This document shows positions 6,772 through 54,320 of a stretch of 64,000 nt of DNA, piece by piece (position 1 is the first letter of the stretch; each line of letters opens with the position of its first letter). The notes beneath the pieces are model-generated. The model saw nothing but the letters and a program-made list of their open reading frames with translations, had not been told where the DNA came from and did no database searches. Source of the DNA: Buxus sempervirens (Eukaryota; Streptophyta; Magnoliopsida; Buxales; Buxaceae); the NCBI GenBank assembly GCA_947561395.2, contig OX387184.1, positions 24,418,766 to 24,482,765 of the forward strand, in the 5' to 3' direction. The position numbers were made by a program, and so were the translations under genes.

Positions 6772-7963
6772 TGAAAAACAAAGTTTAGACTCTAAATCAC
6801 CTAGAGGGGGGGTGAATAGGTGAAACCGATTGCAGAATAAAAAATCTATCAATTAAAAACAAGTTCTTAATTAATAGGCATGCACAAGTCTGAACAAATA
6901 TCAATTCATCACACACAATTGCAAAATAGAGAAGAACCAACACAAGCAATTTGGTGACGAAGGGAAAACTCTAAGAGAACTCTCAAAGAGAAAAACCGTC
7001 CGGGCTACGAGGTGCCACCTCTGGAAATCACTATAAGAAGAAGACTTACAATAGTGGTTCAGACGACCCAACAATGACTCTGACTCACAATGTAAATATC
7101 TGAAGAACTCTTCAGATTTGCATCCTTGCAACGATTCAGAACTCTGAATATCTCCTTAGTGAAGTGCCAAACGAACTCGCTCAGCAACCGTAGGAACTCC
7201 CACGAGCAAACTCTTCAATCCGGAACTCCAAGGTGGAAAAGAAAGAAGAAGACTGGTTTTGATGGCTCAAAGAAGAAGAAGAAAGAGGAAGAAGATCTCT
7301 CTCTCTTGCACACGTTTTTAGGGTTCTCTAAAACGTCTTGGGTAACCCTCACAATAGGCTAGACACTCCTTAAATAGGTTAGGAGAAAGAAGGGAACGAA
7401 AAGGAAACAAATCAGAAAAGATCTGATTTCTAAAATAGAAGTTTGTTCACGAACGTTCGAACGCTCAGCGAACGTGGCTCGAACGTTCGATATAACAACT
7501 CACTTTTCTTCTTCTCGTTCGAACGACCAGCGAACGTTCAGCGAACGCTACTCTCAGGTTTCTCTGTGGAACCTCAACGGTCGAACGTGCAGCGAACGTG
7601 AAGCGAACGCTGCTCTCTGGTTTCTCTGTGGAACACCAACGGTCGAACGTTCAGAGAACGTTAGGCGAACGTTGCTCTCTGGTTTCTCTGTGGAACACCA
7701 ACGGCCGAACGTTCAACGAACGTGAGGTGAACGCTGCTCTCGGGTTTGTCTGTGGAACACCAACGGTCGAACGTTCAGAGAACGTGAGGCGAACGCTGCT
7801 CTCTGGTTTCTCTGTGGACCCTCAACGGTCGAACGACCAGCGAACGTTCATCGAACGTTGGATGTAACTTTAACAATTTGACTCCGATCAAAACCCCGTT
7901 TGAACCACACAACCTATAACCTATCCCAAATACATTGACCATATTTAAACTACCTTTTTGACA
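6772..7963 (-). mobile_element. SIRE 5' LTR with promoter and expanded motif array
   Basis: Plus-strand ends are TG (6772) and CA (7963). Near the U5 end is the run of C followed by TCTAGGTG (minus strand) seen in many plant SIRE/Tork LTR ends. A TATA-like CTATTTAAGG sits near 7365-7380 on the minus strand, and upstream of it (7450-7860) is a dense array of AACGTTCGAAC-type words, part of which is tandemly repeated. Length 1192 bp, of which about 280 bp is tandem expansion. Confidence 0.7.
7530..7862 (-). repeat. 62-bp tandem repeat, about five copies, in the SIRE LTR U3
   Basis: The phrase GGTTTCTCTGTGGAAC recurs at about 7557, 7619, 7681, 7743 and 7805, an exact 62-bp step. Between the phrases each unit has two or three copies of a GAACGTTC/CGAACGTT word. 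The position, upstream of the TATA-like box, is that of an LTR enhancer. The small differences between units suggest duplication inside the element rather than an assembly artefact. Confidence 0.85.
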
Positions 7964-9749: not shown

Positions 9750-10949
9750 TCAATTAAAGTACCACCAGGAGTTACCTTCATTGGAGGATGAAAGAAATGA
9801 AAGTTGTTCTGTAATAATCTGCAGTGGACGGGGATGAGATAATATGGCATTGTATGGAGCATGGCAATAGCACCAAGTTTTCCCCTTCTGAATTATGAAT
9901 TTTGTTATTGAGGTCAATTAATTCATTTGACTGGATTTTGCCTGTCCCAGTTTTTGTTCAGAATTATACTCATACCAAGTATGGTATAACTTGTTGAAAT
10001 ATAGTAATTAATCGGTCCTCTATTTATTCAATTATATCAATAGTATCTCATGATGGATTCTCTTGATGTATTTAATGAAATTTATGGTTACCATTAATCG
10101 CTAGATGCCTCTATGCAGGGGATACATGCATTAGAGAATAAAAGTCATGAAAATGCTTGCAAAAGGTAGATATATTTCCTGTATTAATCACAGGAACACG
10201 CTTTGCAATGAGAGTGACCCAAGGAAAATTTTGTTCAATTGTGTATGACACAAGTATCATTCTGTTCTTCCAAAGGTAAATTAGAATTGTCCATTTGACG
10301 TGGTCCTTCGGATTAAGGCGTTTATAAAACATCTTAACTTATTTAAACCTCAATAATATACATGTATACGATTTTATCATGAGTATAATGGTTGTCCGAT
10401 TAAACTGTACAAATGACAATTCTTGGCATCTCTTGAATAGGTATGACAAGAATGTACCCAGGAAGGTGCACGGCCTGCAAAACACGGAAGAGGTGCTGCA
10501 GACAACAGAGCTGGCTTGCAAAACATGTAATGTTCCAGTTCTAGCTTTAGTTGAATAAATCATTTCTTCCTTGAGAATCTTCACAACTTCTCCAACTCCA
10601 TCCTGGAAATTACAGTAGAAATTTTTATCATGGATTTATGAAGTCTTGGAAAATTTGGTTAGAATGGACCTAAGAGAAAAAACAGAGCCATATTACAGCT
10701 CACCTGAATGGGTTTTGGGCAGAACAAAACAGAACAAAGTATGAGAATCTATGAGGAAAAACTAAAGGAACAATTACCAAGTAACTTCAAGAAAGAAGCC
10801 AAGCAACTTCAAGAAACTAACATCAAAAATTAATAGTTCAGAATTTAACACTGAAGGCAGTGCTTTCCTATCAGAAGTCTATTCGAGCTAGGAGCATCTT
10901 CAAGAGACTAACATAACCAAGAAATTAATAGTTCAGAATTAAACAATAG
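9750..10949. other. Anonymous AT-rich DNA
   Basis: No gene with recognisable homology over most of this stretch. It contains several short frames with no domain, and a possible exon remnant described separately at 10400-10602. The last bases (10945-10949, AATAG) are the left target duplication of the solo LTR that follows. Confidence 0.5.
10400..10602 (-). pseudogene. Possible exon remnant, unrecognised
   Basis: On the minus strand a clean acceptor-like tract (TTTCTACTGTAATTTCCAG) ends at 10603 and is followed by an open frame reading DGVGEVVKILKEEMIYSTKA. The phrase GV-x-x-V-x-x-(I/M)-L-K-x-E faintly recalls the C-terminal helix of plant 2-hydroxy-acid oxidases (for example GVRRVIEMLKNELEL), but downstream residues do not follow that family. 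It may be chance. No neighbouring exons were found. Confidence 0.2.
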
Positions 10950-11827
10950 TGTAAGACCCCAGTTTTGAGTAGAAAAAAAAATAATAAAAATAAAAATAAT
11001 AAACAATATAAAATAGTAGGTAAAATAAAATATATGCAAAAGTATGAACACATGGATTTATGGACAGGCTTAATCAAAATTTGTTTATTGCTGGAGATTT
11101 GTGGTCATTAGTTGTCAAAGAGAATAAGCTTAAGTGGATGCGGGAAAATGTAGGGTTTTCAGTGGGCGAGCATGCACAGGATCAAGGCTTTTAAAAGGTT
11201 GTCGTGCGGCAATACGCATGGGAGCGTGTGGAAGGTATATATACTAAAGGGGAAATTAGGTTTTTGGTTTGGAATGCTCGCATCATATTTTTATAACTGA
11301 AGAGGTTTGGTGTTTTGCGGCTACTATGGCGATTAGGGTTTCTCTGGGAAGAGATGAGAACCGCGAGAGCTACGACTGGATTAGTGGAGTTGGAGATCCA
11401 GATTTCAGTGGGTTTTTCCTCTCGCGAGCAGGGGATCAGTTCGGCGACCTTCGCATCCACGCGCGCAGCCGGAAGTCATGCTCGGCCGGCTGTGGAATAA
11501 GCTTTTGTTTCTCGGATTAAGCGTATACTTGTGAGTAGCACTGATTTACAACTGGGGTTTTGTGTTTTATGTTTCTCTCGAGATTATTCTGATGCATGGG
11601 TTATATATAAAGTGATAGTGTGAGTTTTCTGGTTTTTCTGGTTTTCGGGAAATTACATGAACAGAGTCTCCGGATTTAATTTTATATTTGAAAATGAAAG
11701 TGTTTAGATTAATTCCAAATATGGTTGGGAAGTCTTCTGGGAGTATTAGGAGTGTAGTAGAACAATTACAGAGGTTCACAAACCGGCCAGTCATGTAGAT
11801 CTCGAAATAACAGAGAAATGAAAATCA

Positions 11828-12105
11828 CAGGGGGTATCCGCTCACCTCGCGCTCACCTCAGAGGTAGGCGCCCCGTTAAAAACGACCCACCGCCGAGCTC
11901 GCGCCCGGCTGCCGCTCAGCTCGCGCTCAGCGGAAAACTATGCGCCCATCTCGCGCGAATCTCGCGCCCACCTCACGCCCATCTCGCGCTCAGCTCACGC
12001 TCACCTAGCGTCAGGTGAGCGGCAGGTCGATTTTACCCTTTTTCTTCACCGCCGACCGGCGCTCACCTCGCGCCCACCTCAGTAAGTGAGCGGCAGACCT
12101 ATTTT
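11828..12105 (+). repeat. GC-rich CTCACCTCGCGC motif array inside the solo LTR
   Basis: About twenty copies of variants of CGCTCACCTCG, CGCGCCCACCTC and GCTCAGCTCGCG stand in a local GC island within otherwise AT-rich DNA, several paired with GAGCGG or GTGAGCG in opposite sense (such as GGTGAGCGGCAG). The array lies downstream of the TATA box, in the presumed transcribed leader. The second solo LTR has a weaker GC patch at the matching place (23735-23850). Confidence 0.7.
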
Positions 12106-12701
12106 GCTTATTAAATTGGAGATTTGAATTAACTAAGGGTATTTGGGTTACCTGAGGATTAAACCACTTCACTATTCACTTGTTTAGGAACCCTGGAAAT
12201 CTATTTTGCCTAGGAAACTATTAGAGGAAAATTGAGTGAATTTCTTAAAAGCTTTCAAGTTGAGTTTAGGTTATTCATGAATATTATGCCGGATACCAAA
12301 CCACTAAGAGTCACTAATTATACTTCCTCTGTTTTATACACTGTTTTGATTGAGGAGTTATTCTATTCTGGTTTCACTGGTTTGGAAACTTTAAATCTAT
12401 TGTAAAGATTTCCTTGGTATGAATGAATTGAGTTTTACTTTCATATGACTTGTGTTACGGAAATGAGAAAATACTGAATGTACTTGAGGTACTGCTTGGT
12501 CCAGAGGGACAGGTGACGAATTGTGATGAGTTTTACATGATATGAGATGAATGGTTTTTCTTTGATATTGGTATTGAGATTATACGATGTTTTACTGTTT
12601 TGGTCTAGCTTGTCCTGGATCCAGAGTCTAAGCTTAGTAATGTGATGTTATTGTTGGTTGTTGAAATTGCATGGCCTTGTGTGTTGCCACGACCGGTGTA
12701 G

Positions 12702-12832
12702 AGCAGCCAGAAACCCTGAGTAGGCCTGGTTGTCAATGCAGAAACCCGGGGAGTAGGCCTGCATTGGATGACGAAACCCTGAGTAGGCCGTCATTTCAGA
12801 GTTTCCGAAACCCTGAGTAGGCCGGAACTGTG
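12702..12832 (+). repeat. Hairpin array with constant GAAACCCTGAGTAGGCC loop, copy 1
   Basis: Four consecutive hairpins share the loop GAAACCCTGAGTAGGCC (second one GAAACCCGGGGAGTAGGCC). Their stems differ: GCAGCCA with TGGTTGT, AATGCA with TGCATT, ATGAC with GTCAT, and TTCC with GGAA. Stems are perfectly paired if G-T wobbles are allowed. Followed by TGTGTACATGGAGG. The array recurs at 13015-13134 in this LTR and at 24460-24593 in the other solo LTR. Confidence 0.85.
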
Positions 12833-13014
12833 TACATGGAGGTGTGGAGTGTCTACTTGGCATGTTTAATTTATCAACTGAACAATAGTCATGACATTGA
12901 CCAATGTTGGTATTTGATTTTGTTTGACGTGATATGTTTTATTCGCTGGTTGTTGGTATTTATGGTTCATGGAATATTGTTTACCGATTATTGGGTATTG
13001 TTCTTCCCGCCGGT

Positions 13015-13134
13015 GTAGAGCAGCCAGAAACCCTGAGTAGGCCTGGTTGTCAATGCAGAAACCCGGGGAGTAGGCCTGCATTGGATGACGTAGTCATTTC
13101 AATATCCGAAACCCTGAGTAGGCCGGATATACAT
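13015..13134 (+). repeat. Hairpin array, copy 2 in the same LTR
   Basis: A repeat of the array at 12702-12832, about 310 bp downstream. The first two hairpins are identical to copy 1. The third has lost its loop but keeps both stem arms (ATGAC-gta-GTCAT). The fourth has a new stem, ATATCC with GGATAT, in place of TTTCC with GGAAC; both sides changed together while the loop stayed the same. Confidence 0.85.
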
Positions 13135-13710
13135 TTGGAGGCGTGGGCATGGTTATGAGAAGACTTTGTGTTATATGACATTGGGGTATCTGGAATTACA
13201 TCTTGAGATACGAAATTATGGTTATTCGCTATGCTGTTGTTAGTTAATCTTTATTTTATCGCATTCTTCGGGATTGGAAACGGATTGTTATTGTTTGACT
13301 TACCTGATGGTTTTCCCGCACTGATATGAATTGGATTATTGAAGTTTAGTCGGCTTATTCGGAATATGCGTATTATCGTCATTGTACATGGTTATAATCG
13401 TGGCATGTTTTAGAACTGAAATAAATGTATTTGTGCATGCATGTGCTGCTCACTGGGATATTCGTATCTCATTCCGTATTGTTTTGTTTTGTTTTCAGCT
13501 GCTCCTGGAGAGGACGATACTTGCGGGTAGTTACTTGGTCATGTGAGTTTTATTTTAGTTTGGGAAATATTTTAGCGCACTCTGTTATATAGTTATTGTT
13601 GTATTCGTGTTTTTCCTTCACTCTGATATTGCGATCCTGTGTTTTATAATAACCTCTGGAGACGAGTTACAGGTTTTTCATGTGACTCGGATCCGGGGCG
13701 TTACAAATAG

Positions 13711-14204
13711 AGATTAAAGTAAACATAAAAATATTCTATTCTTGGCCTTCTTCAATAGCTGAACTGGTTTTTCTTCATGGAACTTCAAATCAACTTGGTT
13801 ATTCATCGAATAAATTCATCCATGTGATCCTGTCAACACGATGAAAAAAATTGAAGCCAATTTATTAATCATCACAACCAGTTCTTTATATTAAAATGCA
13901 TCCACCCTCTTTATTAGATCTTTAAATCAAACAACATATATAACAAAAAAAAATAATTAAGCTTGATATTTTGAGAAAGGGATGTTGATTGCCCCTTTAC
14001 CATTTTTTTCATTCTTATCATTTGTTTGACCAATTTATAACTGATTATTTAAATCAAAATCTTGAGATAATGCAATTTTTTAATATCTACAATCAAAACA
14101 ACATAGCCAAAGGCCCATGTTATCATGGTTTAAATAATTTATCAGTTAGCTCCTTATATAGGTAACTATTCTCACATGAGGGTAAAAACAAAGGAATAGT
14201 AAAA
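13711..14204. other. Anonymous AT-rich DNA
   Basis: No gene or repeat could be recognised between the solo LTR and the Mutator-type remnant. Confidence 0.5.
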
Positions 14205-18124: not shown

Positions 18125-18547
18125 TTGCTAGAGAAGGGATTTATCAGGCCGAGTGTGTCTCCATGGGGTGCACCAGTTCTGTTTGTGCAGAAGAAGGATG
18201 GTAGTACGCGAATGTATATTGATTGTAGGCAGCTAAATCAAGTGACAGTGAAGAACAAGTATCCGTTATCTAGGATTTATGAGTTGTTTGACCAGTTAAG
18301 AGGTGCATCCTGGTTTTACAAGATTGATTTAAGGTCGGGCTACCATCAGTTGAGAGTAACAGAGGAGGATGTAGAGAAGACAGTTTTCCGTACACGCTAT
18401 GGGCGTTATGAGTTCCTGGTTATGCCTTTTGGGCTGACCAATGCCCCAGCTATTTTCATGGACCTCATGAACAGGATTTTTCATGCATACTTCGACAGTT
18501 TTGTAGCTGTATTTATTGATGACATCTTGGTATATTCTAAGACCTGA
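18125..18547 (+). pseudogene. Tekay-like reverse transcriptase core
   Basis: 140 residues: [76 protein letters not shown] and the catalytic [11 protein letters not shown]. This covers fingers and palm of Gypsy RT. Its neighbours are protease upstream and RNase H downstream. Part of a broken fossil. Confidence 0.85.
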
Positions 18548-18897
18548 GAGGCACATGTTGGGCATTTGAAGTCAGTATTGCATACTTTGAGAGACCACAA
18601 GTTGTATGGAAAATTTAGCAAGTGTCAGTTCTAGCTGAGGCAGATTTCATTCCTAGGTCGTATTATCTCAGATGAGGGTATATCTATGGACCCAGAGAAG
18701 GTTAAGACAGTGGCAGATTAGCCTAGACTCACTACAGTGACAGAGGTCAGGAGTTTCCTTGGCATGGAAGGGTGCTACAGGAGATTCGTCGAGGGATTTT
18801 CTCGTATAGCCGCACCCTTGTCTAACTTAACCAAAAAGGCAATGAAATTCCAGTGGGATGAGAGGTGTGAGCAGAGCTTCTAGGAGTTGAAGAGAGG

Positions 18898-19470
18898 TTG
18901 ACTACTGCCTCAGTGTTGATTGTGTCATCCATGGATGAAGCATTTGCAGTATATTGTGATCCTTCTAGGATTGGTTTGGGATGTGTTTTGATGCAGCAAG
19001 GTAGAGTTGTAGCTTATGCCTCAAGATTGTTGAAACCACATGAGAAGAACTACCCTACTCATGATTTGGAGTTGGCAGCCATAGTATTTGCACTGAAGCT
19101 ATGAAGGCATTACCTTTATGGAGTAGAGTTCGAGATTTTATCTGATCATAAGAGCTTGAGGTACTTGTTTTCTCAAAGAGACTTGAACATGAGGCAGCGT
19201 AGGTGGATGGATCTGCTTAAGGACTTTAAGTTTACTTTGCAATACTACCCAGGTAAAGCAAATGTAGTGGCAGATGCCTTAAGCAGAAAGGGTGCAGTTG
19301 ATGATCAGGTAGCTACTTTAGCAGCCCTTATGATGAGTCAGTGTAGATTGGTGGATTCAGTCAGAGATTGGCAAGGAGAGTTCAGCTTGCCACAGGACGG
19401 AGTGATTATAGTTGCTCGTGTTCAGATAGAGCCAGATTTGGTACAGTTGATTCGGGAGAGACATAACTGA
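18898..19470 (+). pseudogene. Tekay-like RNase H and connector
   Basis: [42 protein letters not shown] and, after 19156, [20 protein letters not shown] and [16 protein letters not shown]: the Gypsy RNase H and its C-terminal connector. Part of a broken fossil. Confidence 0.8.
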
Positions 19471-19477
19471 CCCACAG

Positions 19478-20107
19478 TTGAATCAGACTAGAGAGTTGAT
19501 TAGTAGAGGATCTGAGGTTGCTACAAATTTTTCAAATAGAGATGGACTATTGAGGTTTAGAGGTCGTATTTGTGTTCTGACTGACGAGGAGATTAAGGAG
19601 AAGATATTAACCAAGGGACACAAATTGAAATATGCAGTGCACCCAAGGAGTACAAAGATGTATAAGAATCTGAAGGAGATCTATTGGTGGTCAGGAATGA
19701 AGAGGAAGATTGCAGAGTATGTGGCTAAGTGTTTGACATGTCAGCAAGTGAAGACTGAACATCGTAAGCCACCTGGGCTACTTCAGTCACTTCCTATTCC
19801 AGAATGGAAGTGGGAACATGTGACCATGGACTTTGTGTATGGATTGCCTTTGACAGTGAAGAAGGAGGATGCTATTTGGGTTATTGTCGATAGACTAACT
19901 AAGTCAACACATTTCTTTCCTATCAGCACTAAACAACAGTTGAAGTCTCTAGCTGAGTTGTATGTCAGGAAGATAGTGAGACTTCATGGAGTGCCAGTTT
20001 CCAGAGTGTCAGACAAAGATGCACGATTCACTTCACACTTTTGGTCTGCATTTCAGGCAGCCATGGGCACGAAGTTTAGTTTCAGCACCAGCTATTATTC
20101 TATTTAG
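19478..20107 (+). pseudogene. Tekay-like integrase, N-terminal and core parts
   Basis: HHCC zinc-binding region (HPRSTKMYKNLKEIYWW, CLTCQQVK) then the catalytic core (EHVTMDFVYGLPLT, IWVIVDRLTKSTHFF, HGVPVSRVSDKDARFTSHFW). The chromodomain-containing end expected of Tekay is not present; an LTR tail follows directly. Part of a broken fossil. Confidence 0.8.
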
Positions 20108-20111
20108 GTTT

Positions 20112-20712
20112 ATACGAGCTTGTTTGCTTGAGACTGCTTATTCGAGCATGAACATCTATTTTAATGATTATAAACTATTTCATAGCATGCATGTGTTGTC
20201 TATTGAGATATTCGTATTTCACCTTACTTCTTTATCTTATTTTTTTCAGCTGATACACAAGAGGGGGATCATAGTGGTGATTTTCAGGGTGATCTTGTTG
20301 ACTATTCACTGGAGGAGTATTATTATCCTGATTTGATTTGAGGTGAGGAAAGATGATTGATGAGACTTTAGACAGTTTATTTTATTTATTTGGTTGATGT
20401 ATCTGAGAGATTGAGTGATTAGAACCTTTTGATTATTACCAGACTTAAATGATCATTTGGATTGGATGGTTTATTTGACTTCTTTTTATGAAGATGTTAG
20501 ACTACACTTCCGCACATTGATGTTTCCGTACTCTGATAGTTTATTAATAAATGATTTATTTAATTCTTCAATCTGGTTAATTATTGATGAATATTTGATT
20601 TGGACCAGTAGCATCTCAAATTCGGTTGTTGAGCTGGATTCGGGTTGTTACAGTAGCGAACCAGATTCGTGTCAGGTACTGGTTTGCATTGACCCTGGTT
20701 TGGAGCGTTACA
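20112..20712 (+). mobile_element. 3' LTR tail of the inner Tekay-like element
   Basis: The phrase CATGCATGTG...GAGATATTCGTAT and the TTTTCAGCTG that follows align with the last 270 bp of the solo LTRs at 13430 and 24800. The tail ends GAGCGTTACA at 20712. Immediately after it the CACTA transposase frame resumes. Confidence 0.7.
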
Positions 20713-22954: not shown

Positions 22955-25075
22955 GATGTTGTAAAACCCCAGTTTTAGCGAGTATTTATTTAAAAAATTA
23001 ATTAATAAACTTAATTAAAATATTGTGAGTGGAGATTTCGGGCTATCGAGTAGCAAAGGGTAATTTGAAATTTTTATTTAAATTAAGTATGTAAGTATGT
23101 AAAATATAATTAATGGTGATTAAAATTCTTAAATCCAAACTAATACTATTGTTAACATTAATGGAGGGTAAATATGAAATTTCTAAGATTAAGCTAGGGC
23201 GAGCAATAAATCAAATTGGTTAAGTGTGGACCTCTGTATAAATAGGCTGCTAGGTTAAAATTTTGGATCAGGGGAAAGAAACCAAAAGCCAAGCTCTGAT
23301 AACCGGATGGCGAGAGGAAGGAGAAATATTCCAAGGGTGTTACGTAGGGCCGAGCTCAGATCTAATTAGATTTGGATGTTGCGATGGACCTGAGGACATA
23401 GGGCGTTAAATCTTTCTTTCCGGAGGTGATTATCAGAAAGGTTGGAAGCTAGAAGAAATCCTCAATAAATTAGGTGAGTAGCATCCTTTTCCTCAGTGTT
23501 TTGGATTTATTTTCCTAGGATTAGCCGAACTGCATATTTGAGGATGAATGTTAGTTGAACGTGGTTTATTAAAGAAATTTTGAGGCGTGATATGAAGTGT
23601 GTTAGATTAATTTCATTTTGTATTGAATCATCTATTGAATGTGGTAGGATCATAGAAAAATTGTTACAGAGGCTTGAAACTAGGACAATCATCGATATTT
23701 TGAGTTAACAGTGAGTCGTAAAAATACAGGGAGTGTCCGCTGAGCTGCTGCCAACCTTTTTCTCCTCAGCGGCTGCTTAGTGCAAGTCAATTTTTGGATC
23801 CACCGACCTGGCACCAACTAAGCCGAGGTCAGCGCAACCTTCTCTTTTTCCAGGGAATGTGTGACTGCCCATTTTGAACCCATTTTTGATACTTTGAGGC
23901 TTAAACCTCTTAGCCAAAAACCATATTTGGATGTTAGAAGTATTTTAATCTGCCCCAAACACTTGGAGATCTTTGGGTAAATTAGTGGTGGGTTTTATGA
24001 GTTTCCAAAGTGATATTCGAAGGACTGTTGTAGTCTTATTACTGTTCTTGATACTTAAATTAGTATTATAGTTCTATCCATGCTTTACAAATATTTTCTG
24101 GGTTGTGCACTTGGTTTAACTTGAGTTTTAACGGATTGCAAGGTGTTGAACCGGATTATAAAAATTGTCTTTGTGTGAGTAAATGATTATACTATTGGTA
24201 TGGATTTGTGTTTTTGGGTTAGAATGTTTACTGAAGTTCCATGAGTTATGTTTCTGGTCCGGAGTGACCTGTGTTGAGTTGTATTATAATATACATGATG
24301 ATGGAAATGGTTGGTCTAATATGTTGACAGTGGTGAGTTTATGCGATTGTTTTCTATTTTGGTTTAGCTTCACCTGGATCCATGTCTAAGCTTAGTAATG
24401 TGATGGTATTGTTTGTTAGTGTAATTGCATGACCTTGTGTGTTGCCACGACCTGTATAGAGCAGCCAGAAACCCTGAGTAGGCCTGGTTGTCAATGCCGA
24501 AACCCGAGGAGTAGGCCGGCATTGGATGACGAACCCCTGAGTAAACCGTCATTTCAGAATTCTGAAACCCTGAGTAGGCCGGAATTGTGTACATGGAGGT
24601 GTGGATGTCTCCTTGGCATATCAATTAACCAATTTAAACAATAGGCATGACATTGACCATTCGTTGTTTAATCGGCATTGTGGTTGGTCTATGATTGGAA
24701 ACTGTTATTGAGATGTTGGTTTTCAATTTCGGAGATTATCTCTATTGATTATTTGTGCTGGTTATTTATCGTGGCATGTTTATAACTGAGGATAACTATT
24801 TCTGCATGCATATGCTATTCGCTGAGATATTCGTATCTCATTCTATTGTTTTCGTTTTGTTTTCAGATACTCTTGGAGAGCTCGATACTTGCTGGTAGTT
24901 ATTTGGACATGTGAGTTTATTTCAGTTGGGATTATTTTAGCGCACTCTGTTATATAGTTATTGTTATATTCATGTTTTTCTTTCACTCTGATATTGCGAT
25001 CCTGTGTTACATGCTAACCTCTGGAGACATGTTAAGGTTTAACTACGTAACTCGGATTTGGGGCATTACAAATGT
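22955..25075 (+). mobile_element. Second Tekay-type solo LTR, inserted in a CACTA exon
   Basis: The LTR is 22960-25070 (2111 bp). It begins TGTAAAACCCCAG and ends GGGGCATTACA. Flanks are GATGT (22955-22959) and AATGT (25071-25075), a 5-bp target duplication with one change. A TATAAATA box near 23238 sets the plus orientation. It shares the hairpin array and the last 270 bp with the solo LTR at 10950-13705 but is clearly diverged from it. The altered duplication suggests it is older than the first. Confidence 0.82.
24460..24593 (+). repeat. Hairpin array with GAAACCCTGAGTAGGCC loop, copy in second solo LTR
   Basis: The same four-hairpin series as at 12702. Here the second stem is AATGCC with GGCATT, where the other LTR has AATGCA with TGCATT, and the fourth is AATTCT with GGAATT, where the others have TTTCC/GGAAC and ATATCC/GGATAT. 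Changes on one arm are matched on the other while the loop is almost constant. Confidence 0.85.
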
Positions 25076-25879
25076 ATATACCCAAGTCATGGGGCATAAC
25101 ACACATGGCAAGGTGCGGTGTTGTGGGCTAGACCACACTCCCACTAGGCTGTGGGGTAGCGCATCCTCGAGTACGTCATCTCAGTATGTCGATATGGATG
25201 AGTTTAATAGGATGTGAGAACAATTGCAACGTATGGAAGAGCGGCTAGAAGAGGAGAGGCGACAACAAGAAAAAATTGAAGCAACTGTTGCACAACATGC
25301 CAGAGAATTTGCAGAGTTTAGAAACTTAATGGCGAGTAACCTTCAAACACAGGTATTATATAAATGCCTCAAAAAATACATATAGCACAAGATCATATCA
25401 ACTTTATATTTAAATACCACACTTAATGATCTTTGTTACAATGTATAGCCTCCTGGCGAAACTTCTGCAAATGACAATCCTCCTCGGGATTTTAGCTAGA
25501 CACTCTTATTATTTGAGGTGAGTAATACAAGATAGCTTCGGTCCTATATATATATTTTGGCTAAATTGATTTGTCTACTTATGATTTTAGAATTCAAAAT
25601 TATTATATTACTGATGCATGATTCATTGCTATTTTCATGTAGGGCTATTAAATTGATACGAGTTACAATCTCACTTGTTAATGGAAACCACCAATTTACT
25701 TTTATTTAGTTTAATTTATATGACACGCATGTTTGCAGTACTTTAATTGTACTGGAATCTCTTCTAATTCAATTTGTTTTTGTAATTCTCTTGTTCTATT
25801 TATTATAAAATTTTCCACGAAATCAGGTATTTTACAGGATTTTCTATGGCATTAATTATAGATTTTATGTTTGCAGGTA

Positions 25880-32956: not shown

Positions 32957-33225
32957 AGTTTCTTATGCAGCAAGTTTTGACCTGCTGCTGTAGTCTGACT
33001 GAGCACATGGAAAAAATGGAAGCAAGTTTCTTATGCAGCAAGTTTTGACCTGCTGCTGCAGTCTGACTGAGCACATGGAAAAAATGGAAGCAAGTTTCTT
33101 ATGCAACAAGTCTTTACCTGCCGAAGGCTGACCGAGCACATGGAAAAATAGAAGCAAGTTTCTTATGTAGCAAGTTTTGACCTCTGAAGGCTGATTGAGC
33201 ACATGGAAAAATACAAGCAAGTGAA
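32957..33225 (+). repeat. Four-copy tandem repeat, 64-68 bp unit
   Basis: CAAGTTTTGACCT or a close variant recurs at 32971, 33039, 33107 and 33171, each followed by a GCTGACTGAGCACATGGAAA-like phrase and preceded by AAGCAAGTTTCTTATG. The first two units are nearly identical, the later two shorter and more diverged. Confidence 0.85.
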
Positions 33226-36200
33226 GCAGGCAAGCGTATTGGTGTGCCAATCCTTCAAATGTAGCTGAGCCACGTGTTCTGTTGACGATCACCATCTCTA
33301 ACATCCAGAAGAATCGCTCCGCCGGCTCTTTTGTCCAACAATAAGGACCACTGGTTTGGATGAACACCGACTATCTTAATCGTTTCATCGAAGAAGAAGC
33401 CTCTTTTTTCTTCGTGCAGCGTCTCTTTTTGAGCTTGATCGAAGCGTTTGTCCTTATTTGGTTGAGGTTATTCACCTGCATTAGACGTGCTAAATCAGTT
33501 CATCGAAGGCTCTGTGTTTATTTGGCTGAGGTTAGTCACCTTTGTTAGAGGTGCTAAATCAATGGCTGTGCTTCTGTTATTTGGTTATTCTCTGTTGTAT
33601 TCGGGTTATTCGGCATCGTCTCCTTTCTGTAACTTCCGAGTAGGAAGATGTATCTCTTTTGTATAATTGGAATATAAATGGTTCAATGACGTCTTTCATC
33701 TTGCTTTGTTTCTTATACGATGTGCAAAATGGTGTTACTTTGTCCGTTTTATTTATCTACTGTATTCGAGAGAGGGCTCCAAATCTATCTAATGGTACGA
33801 TATGTTCGGTTTCTAATTTGAGCAGGGTACCAACGACTCCCTTGCTATTGGTCTCTTTAATATTGGTTTTTTTCCATGTTATGTTCTCCACACAGCGATA
33901 ACACAGAAGCTTTAAAGATGAAACTGCCTCATGTATTATTTCGGGCTTCTTTATCTTTCATTATGACATCACTACACTGATATTGGTCTCCTTCATATTG
34001 GTTTTGCCTCCTGTATTATTTGGAGCTTCTTTATCTATCATTATGACATCACTACACTGATATTGGTCTCTTTCATATCGGTTTTTTCGATCTTATGTTC
34101 TCCGCACAAACAATGACAGGGAAGCATTAAAGATGAAACTGATGTATTATTTGCGGCTTCTTTTAATTCTCCGATTTAGAATATCTTTATCATAAGTTGT
34201 GTTTTACTAATGATGTTGCACATTTGCCTGCATTATTATTGCCTAGATGCTATTTTTGCCTAGATGTTATTTCTTTCTTTGTCGTTATTATTACTTTGTC
34301 TCTGTTATATCTACTGCATTTAATTTTGTTGCTCAGTTCAATGGTTATATTTATTATATTTTAGTCTTTTGTCTCCATTATTATTGTTGTTATTAATGAT
34401 ATGTTTATATGATTAGTCATACTCCATGTGTTTAATTTGATTAGAACATAATTTTATTCATATAAATGTTTAAGTATAGCATGTGGAAGTTTCTCTTTTC
34501 ATTCATCTTATAACGTGGTCCTTTGCTTAATTCAAGTGTTCAATTCGCCCCATTATGGCTTTCTCCTTGCATTGTTTTTGCACTTATTTATAGCTTCCAT
34601 GAGCTTTACTTCATTCTAACTCTATTTGATTCTTATCCCATTTCATTTTTCTACCGGGTCTTCCACAACTGTTTCAAGGAGCTCCTGATCTGTTTATATC
34701 AACGCAATGCTTACATCTACACTCACTCACACTTTTGAAGTTTATTCCTCATATGACTAATCAAGATACTTATATAATTATTCTGACATTTATGTAACTA
34801 TATCACATCTATGACACCATCTTTACTTTAAAGTTCTTGCCAAATAAAATCACTTCTCAAAAAAACTTCCTTTCCTTAAAATAAGACACTAAACACTTTT
34901 AAAAAGTAACAACCAACATCTTTACGAGTTGGTTTATTTTTTATATTAAAAGAAGTCTTAAAATGAAAAACTACTAACATTTATTTATTATCAAAGTATG
35001 TTTATTACATTTTAGTAATTTCTCTGTATTATTATTGTTGTTATTATTGATGTGTTTATATGATTAGTTCATCATTATTGTCTTTGTTATTTTTCTCTCT
35101 TTGTTATTATTGTTCGGCCTGATTTTTTTGCCCCCCTCATTATCATTATTTCTCTCTTTGTCCTTAACATTACTTGATCTCTATTATACCTACTACGTTT
35201 ATTTTTTGTTTATCAACTCAATTGTTATATTTATTACATTTTGGTATTTTGCCTGCACTATTATTGTTGGTATTATTCATATGTTTATATGATTAGTCAC
35301 TGTACTTCATGCATTTCGTTTCATTAAAACATGGTTTCAGTTATATTAGAATTATATTACATTTAGTTCACAAAAAAGTTCCTTTTTTCACAAATAACAG
35401 AACATCCTATTGGATTTATTTTTGTGATATTTATTATTATTATTATTTTTAATTACTGTAATTATTGTTATTTTTTTCCTTCGTTATTATTTTCATGCCC
35501 ATTATTGCTTTTTTGGTTTGTTATTATTGTCATTATTCTTATTGTTTCGATTTAATTTCTATTTTGGATAAATAAGACTCAATCATTTTTGTCTATGCTT
35601 TAGGTGCTATTCATTATTCAACAGTTCATTTAGACTCTTTGTCGTTCAGTGACACTAACTTTTCTTGGTTATCTACCTCTACAATATTGTGTCAACTGGT
35701 GACAGGTTAGTTCCTTTCAACCTTCATTGTTAATTTTTCCAACATAATCATTTTTTTTGGTTATTCACTTCAATGGTTATATCTATTGTCTTCATTTTTT
35801 GTCCATGTGACTATTCCTATATATATATATATATATATATATTAATTATAATTGATGTTACCCGCACTATTATCATTATAATTGTAATTTCCATCTTCAT
35901 TATTATTGTTATTATTATTGTTATCATTTTTTCCCATGCTTTTTCTTTCCATTATTATTTTTCTCTGCCATATTACCATTATTTCTCTCTTCATTCTCAT
36001 TATCAATTCATCTCTGTTATATCTGCTGCATTTACTTTTTTTGCCAAATGCAATTTGTCAATATAATCTAGATTTACTTTGTCTCCATTATTATTGTCAT
36101 TATTTTGATTTCTTACTTTTTACGCATTTATTTCGTCTCTATTATATCTCCTTCATGTGTTTACTTTCATTACAACATTATTTTATTCACATAAGTGTTG

Positions 36201-54164: not shown

Positions 54165-54320
54165 AAGTAACCGTATTTAACATACGAGCAAGCGGTGCCC
54201 GTAATTTTTATACGGGCGCACTGTGCCCGTAAATGTTTCACGGTCACAGTGTGTCCGTATTCTTTATACGGGCGCGCTATGCCCGTATTTTAATCACGGA
54301 TTTTACTGCCTTACGATTTT
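54165..54320 (+). promoter_or_regulatory. Hairpin array upstream of the second antisense gene
   Basis: GCCCGTAATTTTTATACGGG and its C form a 7-bp stem; others are GCCCGT...CACGGTC, GTCCGTA with TACGGGC around TTCTTTA, and GCCCGT...ACGGA. They are the same words as in the LTR at 49079-49200. TATATAAA follows at about 54328-54335 and the first ATG of the second antisense ORF is at 54424. Confidence 0.75.

Follow-up and report, generated by a model that had tools for sequence, protein, structure and literature searches.

Little is known of how plant LTR retrotransposons, which account for most of the genome in many species, recognise RNA of their own. The window analysed here, a stretch of 64,000 nucleotides of Buxus sempervirens DNA (G000:C4:24418766-24482765, from a genome of 676.5 Mb), raises the question of whether the LTRs of one such group carry a selected structure and what that structure might be for. 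An earlier note on this DNA had described hairpins at three places in LTRs, labelled Tekay-type, that share a loop on differing stems, one of them having lost the loop and kept both arms. All of these hairpins are present and their coordinates were confirmed, including the loop-less one (Table 1), a short form of H3 that is found in 5 of 97 parsed arrays. Both LTRs hold four consecutive hairpins, H1-H4, the array being doubled in LTR 1, where the second copy lies ~317 bp downstream of the first. The order of features is the same in the two: TATA-like box, 5'-splice-site-like motif, H0, H1-H4, H5, 3'-splice-site-like motif and LTR end.

Table 1. Positions of LTR features, hairpins and shared loops, counted from the first nucleotide of the window
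Feature	Position	Strand	Sequence or remark
LTR 1 (solo)	10950..13705	+	TGTAAGACCCC...GCGTTACA ends; perfect 5-bp target duplication
TATA-like box, LTR 1	11236..11243	+	
5'-splice-site-like motif, LTR 1	11530..11540	+	TGTGAGTAGCA
H0, LTR 1	12499..12510	+	GTCC-AGAG-GGAC
H1, LTR 1 array 1	12703..12733	+	
H2, LTR 1 array 1	12734..12766	+	A-T closing pair
H3, LTR 1 array 1	12767..12795	+	
H4, LTR 1 array 1	12800..12829	+	one-base bulge
H1, LTR 1 array 2	13020..13050	+	sequence identical to array 1 H1
H2, LTR 1 array 2	13051..13083	+	
H3 without shared loop, LTR 1 array 2	13085..13097	+	ATGAC-GTA-GTCAT
H4, LTR 1 array 2	13102..13130	+	ATATCC/GGATAT
H5, LTR 1	13454..13471	+	TGGGATA-TTCG-TATCTCA, one G.U
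3'-splice-site-like motif, LTR 1	13487..13498	+	TTTTGTTTTCAG
H5-like hairpin, third partial LTR	20204..20221	+	TATTTCA arm, one G.U
LTR 2 (solo)	22960..25070	+	TGTAAAACCCC...GCATTACA ends; 5-bp duplication with one mismatch
TATA-like box, LTR 2	23237..23244	+	
5'-splice-site-like motif, LTR 2	23473..23483	+	GGTGAGTAGCA
H0, LTR 2	24256..24269	+	GGTC-CGGAGT-GACC
H1, LTR 2	24461..24491	+	
H2, LTR 2	24492..24524	+	C-G closing pair
H3, LTR 2	24525..24553	+	decayed loop
H4, LTR 2	24557..24586	+	AATTCT/GGAATT
H5, LTR 2	24823..24840	+	TGAGATA-TTCG-TATCTCA
3'-splice-site-like motif, LTR 2	24855..24866	+	TTTTGTTTTCAG
Exact 17-nt loops	12710, 12773, 12807, 13027, 13108, 24468, 24564		
Degenerate loop	24531		3 mismatches
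19-nt form of shared loop (H2)	12741, 13058, 24499		

Judged by sequence, the elements that bear the array can be assigned to Ty3/gypsy. Their LTRs have the TG..CA ends and target-site duplication of LTR retrotransposons; with ends picked so as to minimise mismatches, the duplication is a perfect 5-bp one in 26 of 36 LTRs, has one mismatch in 5 and has 2-5 mismatches in 5. The assignment draws on a primer-binding-like site, TGGTATCA(G/A)AG, after the LTRs of L015 and L043, on gag-like frames following the L043 LTR, with a Retrotrans_gag match of 7e-5 (just below the Pfam cut-off) and a zf-CCHC knuckle, and on an SH3_Tf2-1 integrase end (2e-10) preceding the L044 LTR, the evidence from gag or a Ty3-type integrase coming from one element only. 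We take the TGGTATCA site to be linked to initiator tRNA-Met. The orientation of the LTRs is supported by this site and by the gag-like frames of L043, which lie on the same strand as its LTR. The Tekay label is a putative one; the two L044 pieces scanned gave no match to a Chromo domain. Most of the loci L009-L048 appear as solo LTRs, L015 and L043 alone having the primer-binding-like site, and a TATA-like box is found in 22 of 35 LTRs.

The 17-nt loop has 10,236 exact copies genome-wide and its reversed control has none; within the window, 8 matches with at most 3 mismatches compare with 0.08 expected from shuffles. The note had named loop words lacking flanking complementarity as an observation that would count against a structure. 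Of 83 exact loops, taken from the window and from 40 loci for which the loop was the sole criterion of choice, 70 show four or five canonical pairs out of five in their flanks, as against 7.2% of 3000 random positions; the mean number of flanking pairs, 4.54, falls to 2.66 once 3' flanks are exchanged between these loops. The hairpins are not due to chance. Of the 13 loops below this level of pairing, 11 belong to H4, where the 5' arm mostly has a bulge of one base; the other two are a recombinant hairpin (L018) and an H1 with a deleted base (L011); in H4 the 5' arm AGT-N-TCC pairs with GGAACT, and the bulged base is A, T, G or absent among copies. A search for new hairpin contexts, at the 39 places where the exact loop is preceded by T or G and followed by A or C, yielded only known ones (28 H3-like by eye, the others H4, H2, H1' or recombinant). 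At one further site the same array occurs three times on one strand, ~61.03 kb apart (G000:C1:8882523, 8943550 and 9004578), either by tandem duplication or as an assembly artefact.

The claim that the loop stays constant while the stems vary holds within the main subfamily; in divergent copies the loop changes as well, at times in several hairpins within an array. One form of the loop, GATACCC, is found mostly in H2-H4 of one lineage, and a TTGGTA-type loop is common to H1 and H3 of L055, L061 and L062, which keep the usual loop in their H2. The loops of H1' take the forms ACC-CTGAGT-GGT and ACT-ATGAGT-AGT, the inner pair (C-G or T-A) being changed on both sides, in a set of 90 sequences of length 43 out of 100, 60 of them unique. 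GAGT itself survives in 339 of the 383 full-length loops (84/97, 85/97, 82/92 and 88/97), a figure inflated by the choice of loci by their loop. The persistent part of the loop is a GAGU(A) core with its inner pair. In the distant LTR L039, a 118-bp tandem repeat of 4.7 copies contains this long hairpin too, here with ATTCC/GGAAT as its stem. This LTR also has 14 short tandem mini-hairpins of the form GGTC-NNNNNN-GACC, with one substitution allowed, of which 13 have GAGT in the loop, 12 an intact GGTC/GACC stem and 11 both. The repetition of the apical core suggests that one binding site is offered in several copies, on stems that differ.

Whether the stems themselves are held by selection was addressed through their arms. 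The 97 arrays parsed come from the window and from 100 fetched loci, of which 40 were found by the loop, 20 by C-G type H2, 11 by mixed H2 arms and 8 by A-T type, with 1 overlapping L049 and 20 divergent H1' loci whose search pattern fixes several outer H1' positions. A curated set was made from 84 arrays less 9 second, 4 recombinant and 2 spurious or fragmentary ones, 5 of 10 anchorless matches being added by hand. H1 occurs with stems such as CAGCCA/TGGTTG, CAGCCCG/CGGGTTG, CAGCAT/ATGTTG, CAGCACCG/CGGTGTTG and CAGCATCAT/ATGGTGTTG, and H4 with stems such as AGTTCC/GGAACT, ATATCC/GGATAT and AATCCG/CGGATT. Genome-wide, the closing pair of H2 is A..T in 1811 copies and C..G in 714, with only 5 + 6 mixed. 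The pair is linked, where the note had named arms that vary independently as a refutation; such linkage alone could reflect one or a few old double changes. The closing pair of H3 is T..G in 98 copies, C..A in 126 and T..A in 17. An excess of G.U over A.C, sought here as proof of selection on RNA, is thus absent, and these single changes look like the ordinary decay of dead copies.

In a tree-aware null, each inferred substitution was moved to another column on the same branch, giving 300 null sets on each of two trees. Covariation in H1 (97 arrays) exceeds all 300 sets on both trees. That in H2 falls short of significance (27 and 31 of 300 sets reach the observed value) and H3 has none (120 and 153 of 300), in a sample that includes the 11 loci picked for mixed H2 arms. 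Pairing as such tells differently: the stems of H2 and H3 are paired in 95% and 96%, against null means of ~0.68-0.71, a level reached by none of the 300 sets, and the 78% of H1 is reached by 4 and 8. When 3' arms are swapped among unique sequences, sets as good as the observed arise in 0 of 5000 cases for H1 and 1 of 5000 for H4, with no effect on H2 (2334 of 5000) or H3 (4305 of 5000). The H1 signal lies mostly between the H1 and H1' classes; swapping within classes gives 47 of 5000 for H1 and 1972 of 5000 for H1', the latter not significant. A pair-specific test on the 60 unique H1' sequences gave 4 of 2000 by shuffling and a borderline 29 of 500 on the tree. A plain G-test with a similar null is not significant in 72 unique arrays for the closing pairs of H2 and H1, which nevertheless rank first and third among all column pairs (E 7 and 10), and for the 60 unique H1' sequences the stem pairs are not at the top. 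The proposition that paired changes preserve the stems is borne out in part: the closing pair of H2 is linked and the arms of H1 and H4 covary, and the differences lie mostly between hairpin positions and among few lineages, not in many independent changes per stem.

Paired changes may also arise without selection, and the main neutral rival is template switching or quasi-palindrome correction in the course of reverse transcription or replication, in which one arm is rewritten from the other. This mechanism can create and maintain hairpins (PMC8794818). It would fit the double changes of H2 with few intermediates (11 mixed of 2536 copies), and exchange within arrays is evident from hairpins of L009, L018, L054 and L077 in which the 5' arm of one hairpin is joined through the loop to the 3' arm of its neighbour downstream, with the intervening piece lost. 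Repeated rewriting should, however, erase the G.T pairs that persist in H1 (87 of 97) and H3 (90 and 96 of 97), as well as the variable bulge of H4, and it leaves the conservation of the whole block unexplained. We regard it as very unlikely.

No argument for function is stronger than this conservation. In 36 aligned full LTRs, compared in 40-bp windows, the array block is the most conserved of all: mean pairwise identity is 0.82-0.95 across 24340-24619 and mostly 0.42-0.73 elsewhere. Selection of these LTRs by their loop inflates the conservation of the array, and the peak nevertheless spans ~100 bp before it. The H0 stem is GGTC/GACC in the main families, the same kind of short hairpin as the mini-hairpins of L039, and GTTC/GAAC with a different loop in 7 of the 36 LTRs, all of the GATACCC lineage. 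A second conserved island, at ~24800-24880, consists of H5 and a pyrimidine tract, and 36 of 42 matched copies of H5 have a TTCG loop. Conservation, together with covariation in H1 and H4, supports the proposal that the LTR has a selected structure downstream of its TATA box, and we hold it to be highly probable that the hairpin array is such a structure.

Conservation might also be read at the level of DNA, with the 17-bp word acting as an enhancer or protein-binding site in repeated copies, or with cruciforms arising from the inverted arms; the word is indeed directly repeated within each array, in the most conserved block of the LTR. Yet the arms of H1-H4 are of unrelated sequence and so offer no common half-site, the loop word changes in divergent copies while pairing stays, and in DNA the fixed G.T pairs would count as mismatches. 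Such an element is quite unlikely.

If the structure acts as RNA, the strand has to be considered. Predicted folding of 94 unique arrays is slightly better than that of shuffled sequences (mean z -0.84, against -0.58 for 108 other LTR windows; -0.61 and -1.68 for the window arrays). The antisense strand folds better still (mean z -1.55), the sense strand being the more stable in only 12 of the 94 arrays, which contradicts the use of sense-strand stability as support. H2, H3 and H4 likewise fold better as antisense and H1 better as sense. An antisense LTR transcript might accordingly carry the structure, a reading which the fixed wobble pairs of H1 and H3 oppose. So does the third pair of H5: a pattern leaving both bases free on each side has 4080 matches in the genome, and the first 100 matches listed, read by eye, have A-T in 54, G.U in 46, and neither A.C nor G-C. 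This variation favours the sense strand, and few lineages may underlie it. We consider antisense function highly improbable; sense-strand RNA may be the selected molecule, with folding against it and the wobble pairs and H5 variation pointing towards it. None of the Rfam covariance models matched the hairpins in 10900-13760 or in 17 loci at E values up to 5. A separate long inverted repeat, L108:41-188, resembles models of microRNA precursors, with scores short of the gathering threshold (MIR4371 the best, 60.3 vs 110 bits), and is perhaps a small inverted-repeat transposon.

The array is flanked by motifs resembling 5' and 3' splice sites, the former kept in 33 of 35 LTRs, and H5 directly precedes a pyrimidine tract and CAG, with the first AG inside its stem. 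Splicing of the LTR leader is suggested by these motifs. A single pattern covering several exon ends found no intron-less copies, its 5 matches all being read as mutated acceptors; the lack of such copies agrees with packaging of the unspliced RNA, or with splicing that does not take place at all. Many retroviruses, but not all, have a packaging signal that is absent from spliced RNA. Placement of a poly(A) site, and hence of R and U5, was abandoned, as only 2 of 35 LTRs have AATAAA immediately ahead of H5.

These features would also suit a selected RNA structure with another task, be it control of leader splicing (by holding it back or by hiding AGs), nuclear export of unspliced RNA or translation. 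H5, with its pyrimidine tract the second conserved island, could hide AGs before the true 3' site, and the array lies between the splice-like motifs, whose use would be putative, the one-pattern search having found no intron-less copy. Mouse retrotransposons are known to have structured export elements (PMC12786077). Any of these tasks alone leaves unexplained why several hairpins share one apical core, and we judge them, taken together, possible but somewhat unlikely.

The explanation we prefer is that the leader of these Ty3/gypsy LTRs holds a module serving as a multivalent RNA recognition site, likely for Gag, in unspliced RNA; we put the probability of this explanation as a whole at roughly 0.35. 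The conserved structured module between the TATA box and the LTR end would comprise H0, H1-H4 (sometimes doubled) and H5. Each of H1-H4 would be an irregular hairpin in which a small internal loop separates the outer stem, of any pairing sequence, from an inner pair (C-G or T-A) and a GAGU(A) apical loop. In full-length RNA, if the LTR is transcribed, the array would offer several sites to one ligand, most probably the element's own zinc-knuckle Gag, and the contact might be used in selecting or dimerising genomic RNA. Were the splice-like motifs used, spliced mRNA would lack the array, and only unspliced RNA would be marked for packaging. More specifically, the array may be an RNA address with exchangeable stems, a GAGU loop being read on any stem that pairs, expandable in tandem (as in the 14 mini-hairpins of L039), with loops changing together with the ligand and a leader intron confining the mark to genomic RNA; this stricter version is unlikely. 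To our knowledge, it would be the first such packaging module in a Ty3/gypsy element of plants. The array is compact and has thousands of natural variants, many of them ready-made stem or loop mutants, which makes the question testable, and it warns that LTRs annotated as plain repeats can hide selected structure.

The step from paired and conserved to Gag-bound and packaged is taken by analogy with Ty1 (PMC5454406) and Ty3 (PMC11381356), where hairpin apices take part in dimerisation and Gag recognises such leaders. Retroviral Psi leaders and the 5' RNA domains of Ty1 and Ty3 likewise place several hairpins towards the 5' end of the element's RNA. In contrast, the Buxus array has at least four hairpins with one loop core and lies inside the LTR; the dimer sites described for the other systems are complementary or palindromic loops, and the GAGU core is not self-complementary. 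The packaging sequences of yeast Ty3 are themselves called not precisely defined (PMC11381356). By such analogy a role of the array in Gag binding or packaging is conceivable, though doubtful.

The packaging sites of satellite tobacco necrosis virus 1 are reportedly joined by a common loop motif. One study describes a proposal of several short degenerate packaging sites dispersed over one RNA of this virus, and finds no discernible role in vivo for the loop-sharing model in a plant satellite virus (PMC6475782). This failure of a related idea weakens the case for packaging, with the difference that the viral sites are dispersed in the genome and the LTR hairpins here are adjacent and conserved. 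In the long R regions of retroviral LTRs, residual conservation has been linked to stem-loops (PMC3601003); the available part of that account deals with gammaretroviruses, class III elements/spumaviruses and lentiviruses rather than plant Ty3/gypsy elements, and includes no shared-loop array of the kind found here. Among plant elements, BARE sets a precedent for keeping translated and packaged RNA in separate pools, and Ogre and EVADE set one for introns with a function (PMC12786077). Within the open-access literature searched (subscription journals and preprints being outside its scope), neither a description of the array nor the loop word was found.

Structured RNA in plant LTRs also brings to mind retrozymes, which are said to be plant LTR elements with hammerhead ribozymes. 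They share with the LTRs described here the word GAAAC, and differ in that a hammerhead has no match up to E 5 in LTR 1 or the 17 loci.

Elsewhere in the window, 18300-20655 holds Ty3/gypsy pol-like sequence (by eye) that switches abruptly near 20105 to the 3' part of a related LTR; this part includes the H5-like hairpin of Table 1 and ends in TTACA, the whole being a truncated or recombinant element. Directly after LTR 2, a frame at 25190-25400 resembles by eye the end of a protein that we take to be of the plant CACTA transposon type, and LTR 2 was seemingly inserted into it. Tandem repeats unrelated to the array lie at 7519-7847, 32957-33222, 33925-34085 and 54195-54299, with periods of 62, 68, 80 and 28 bp, the 28-bp unit being itself an inverted repeat.
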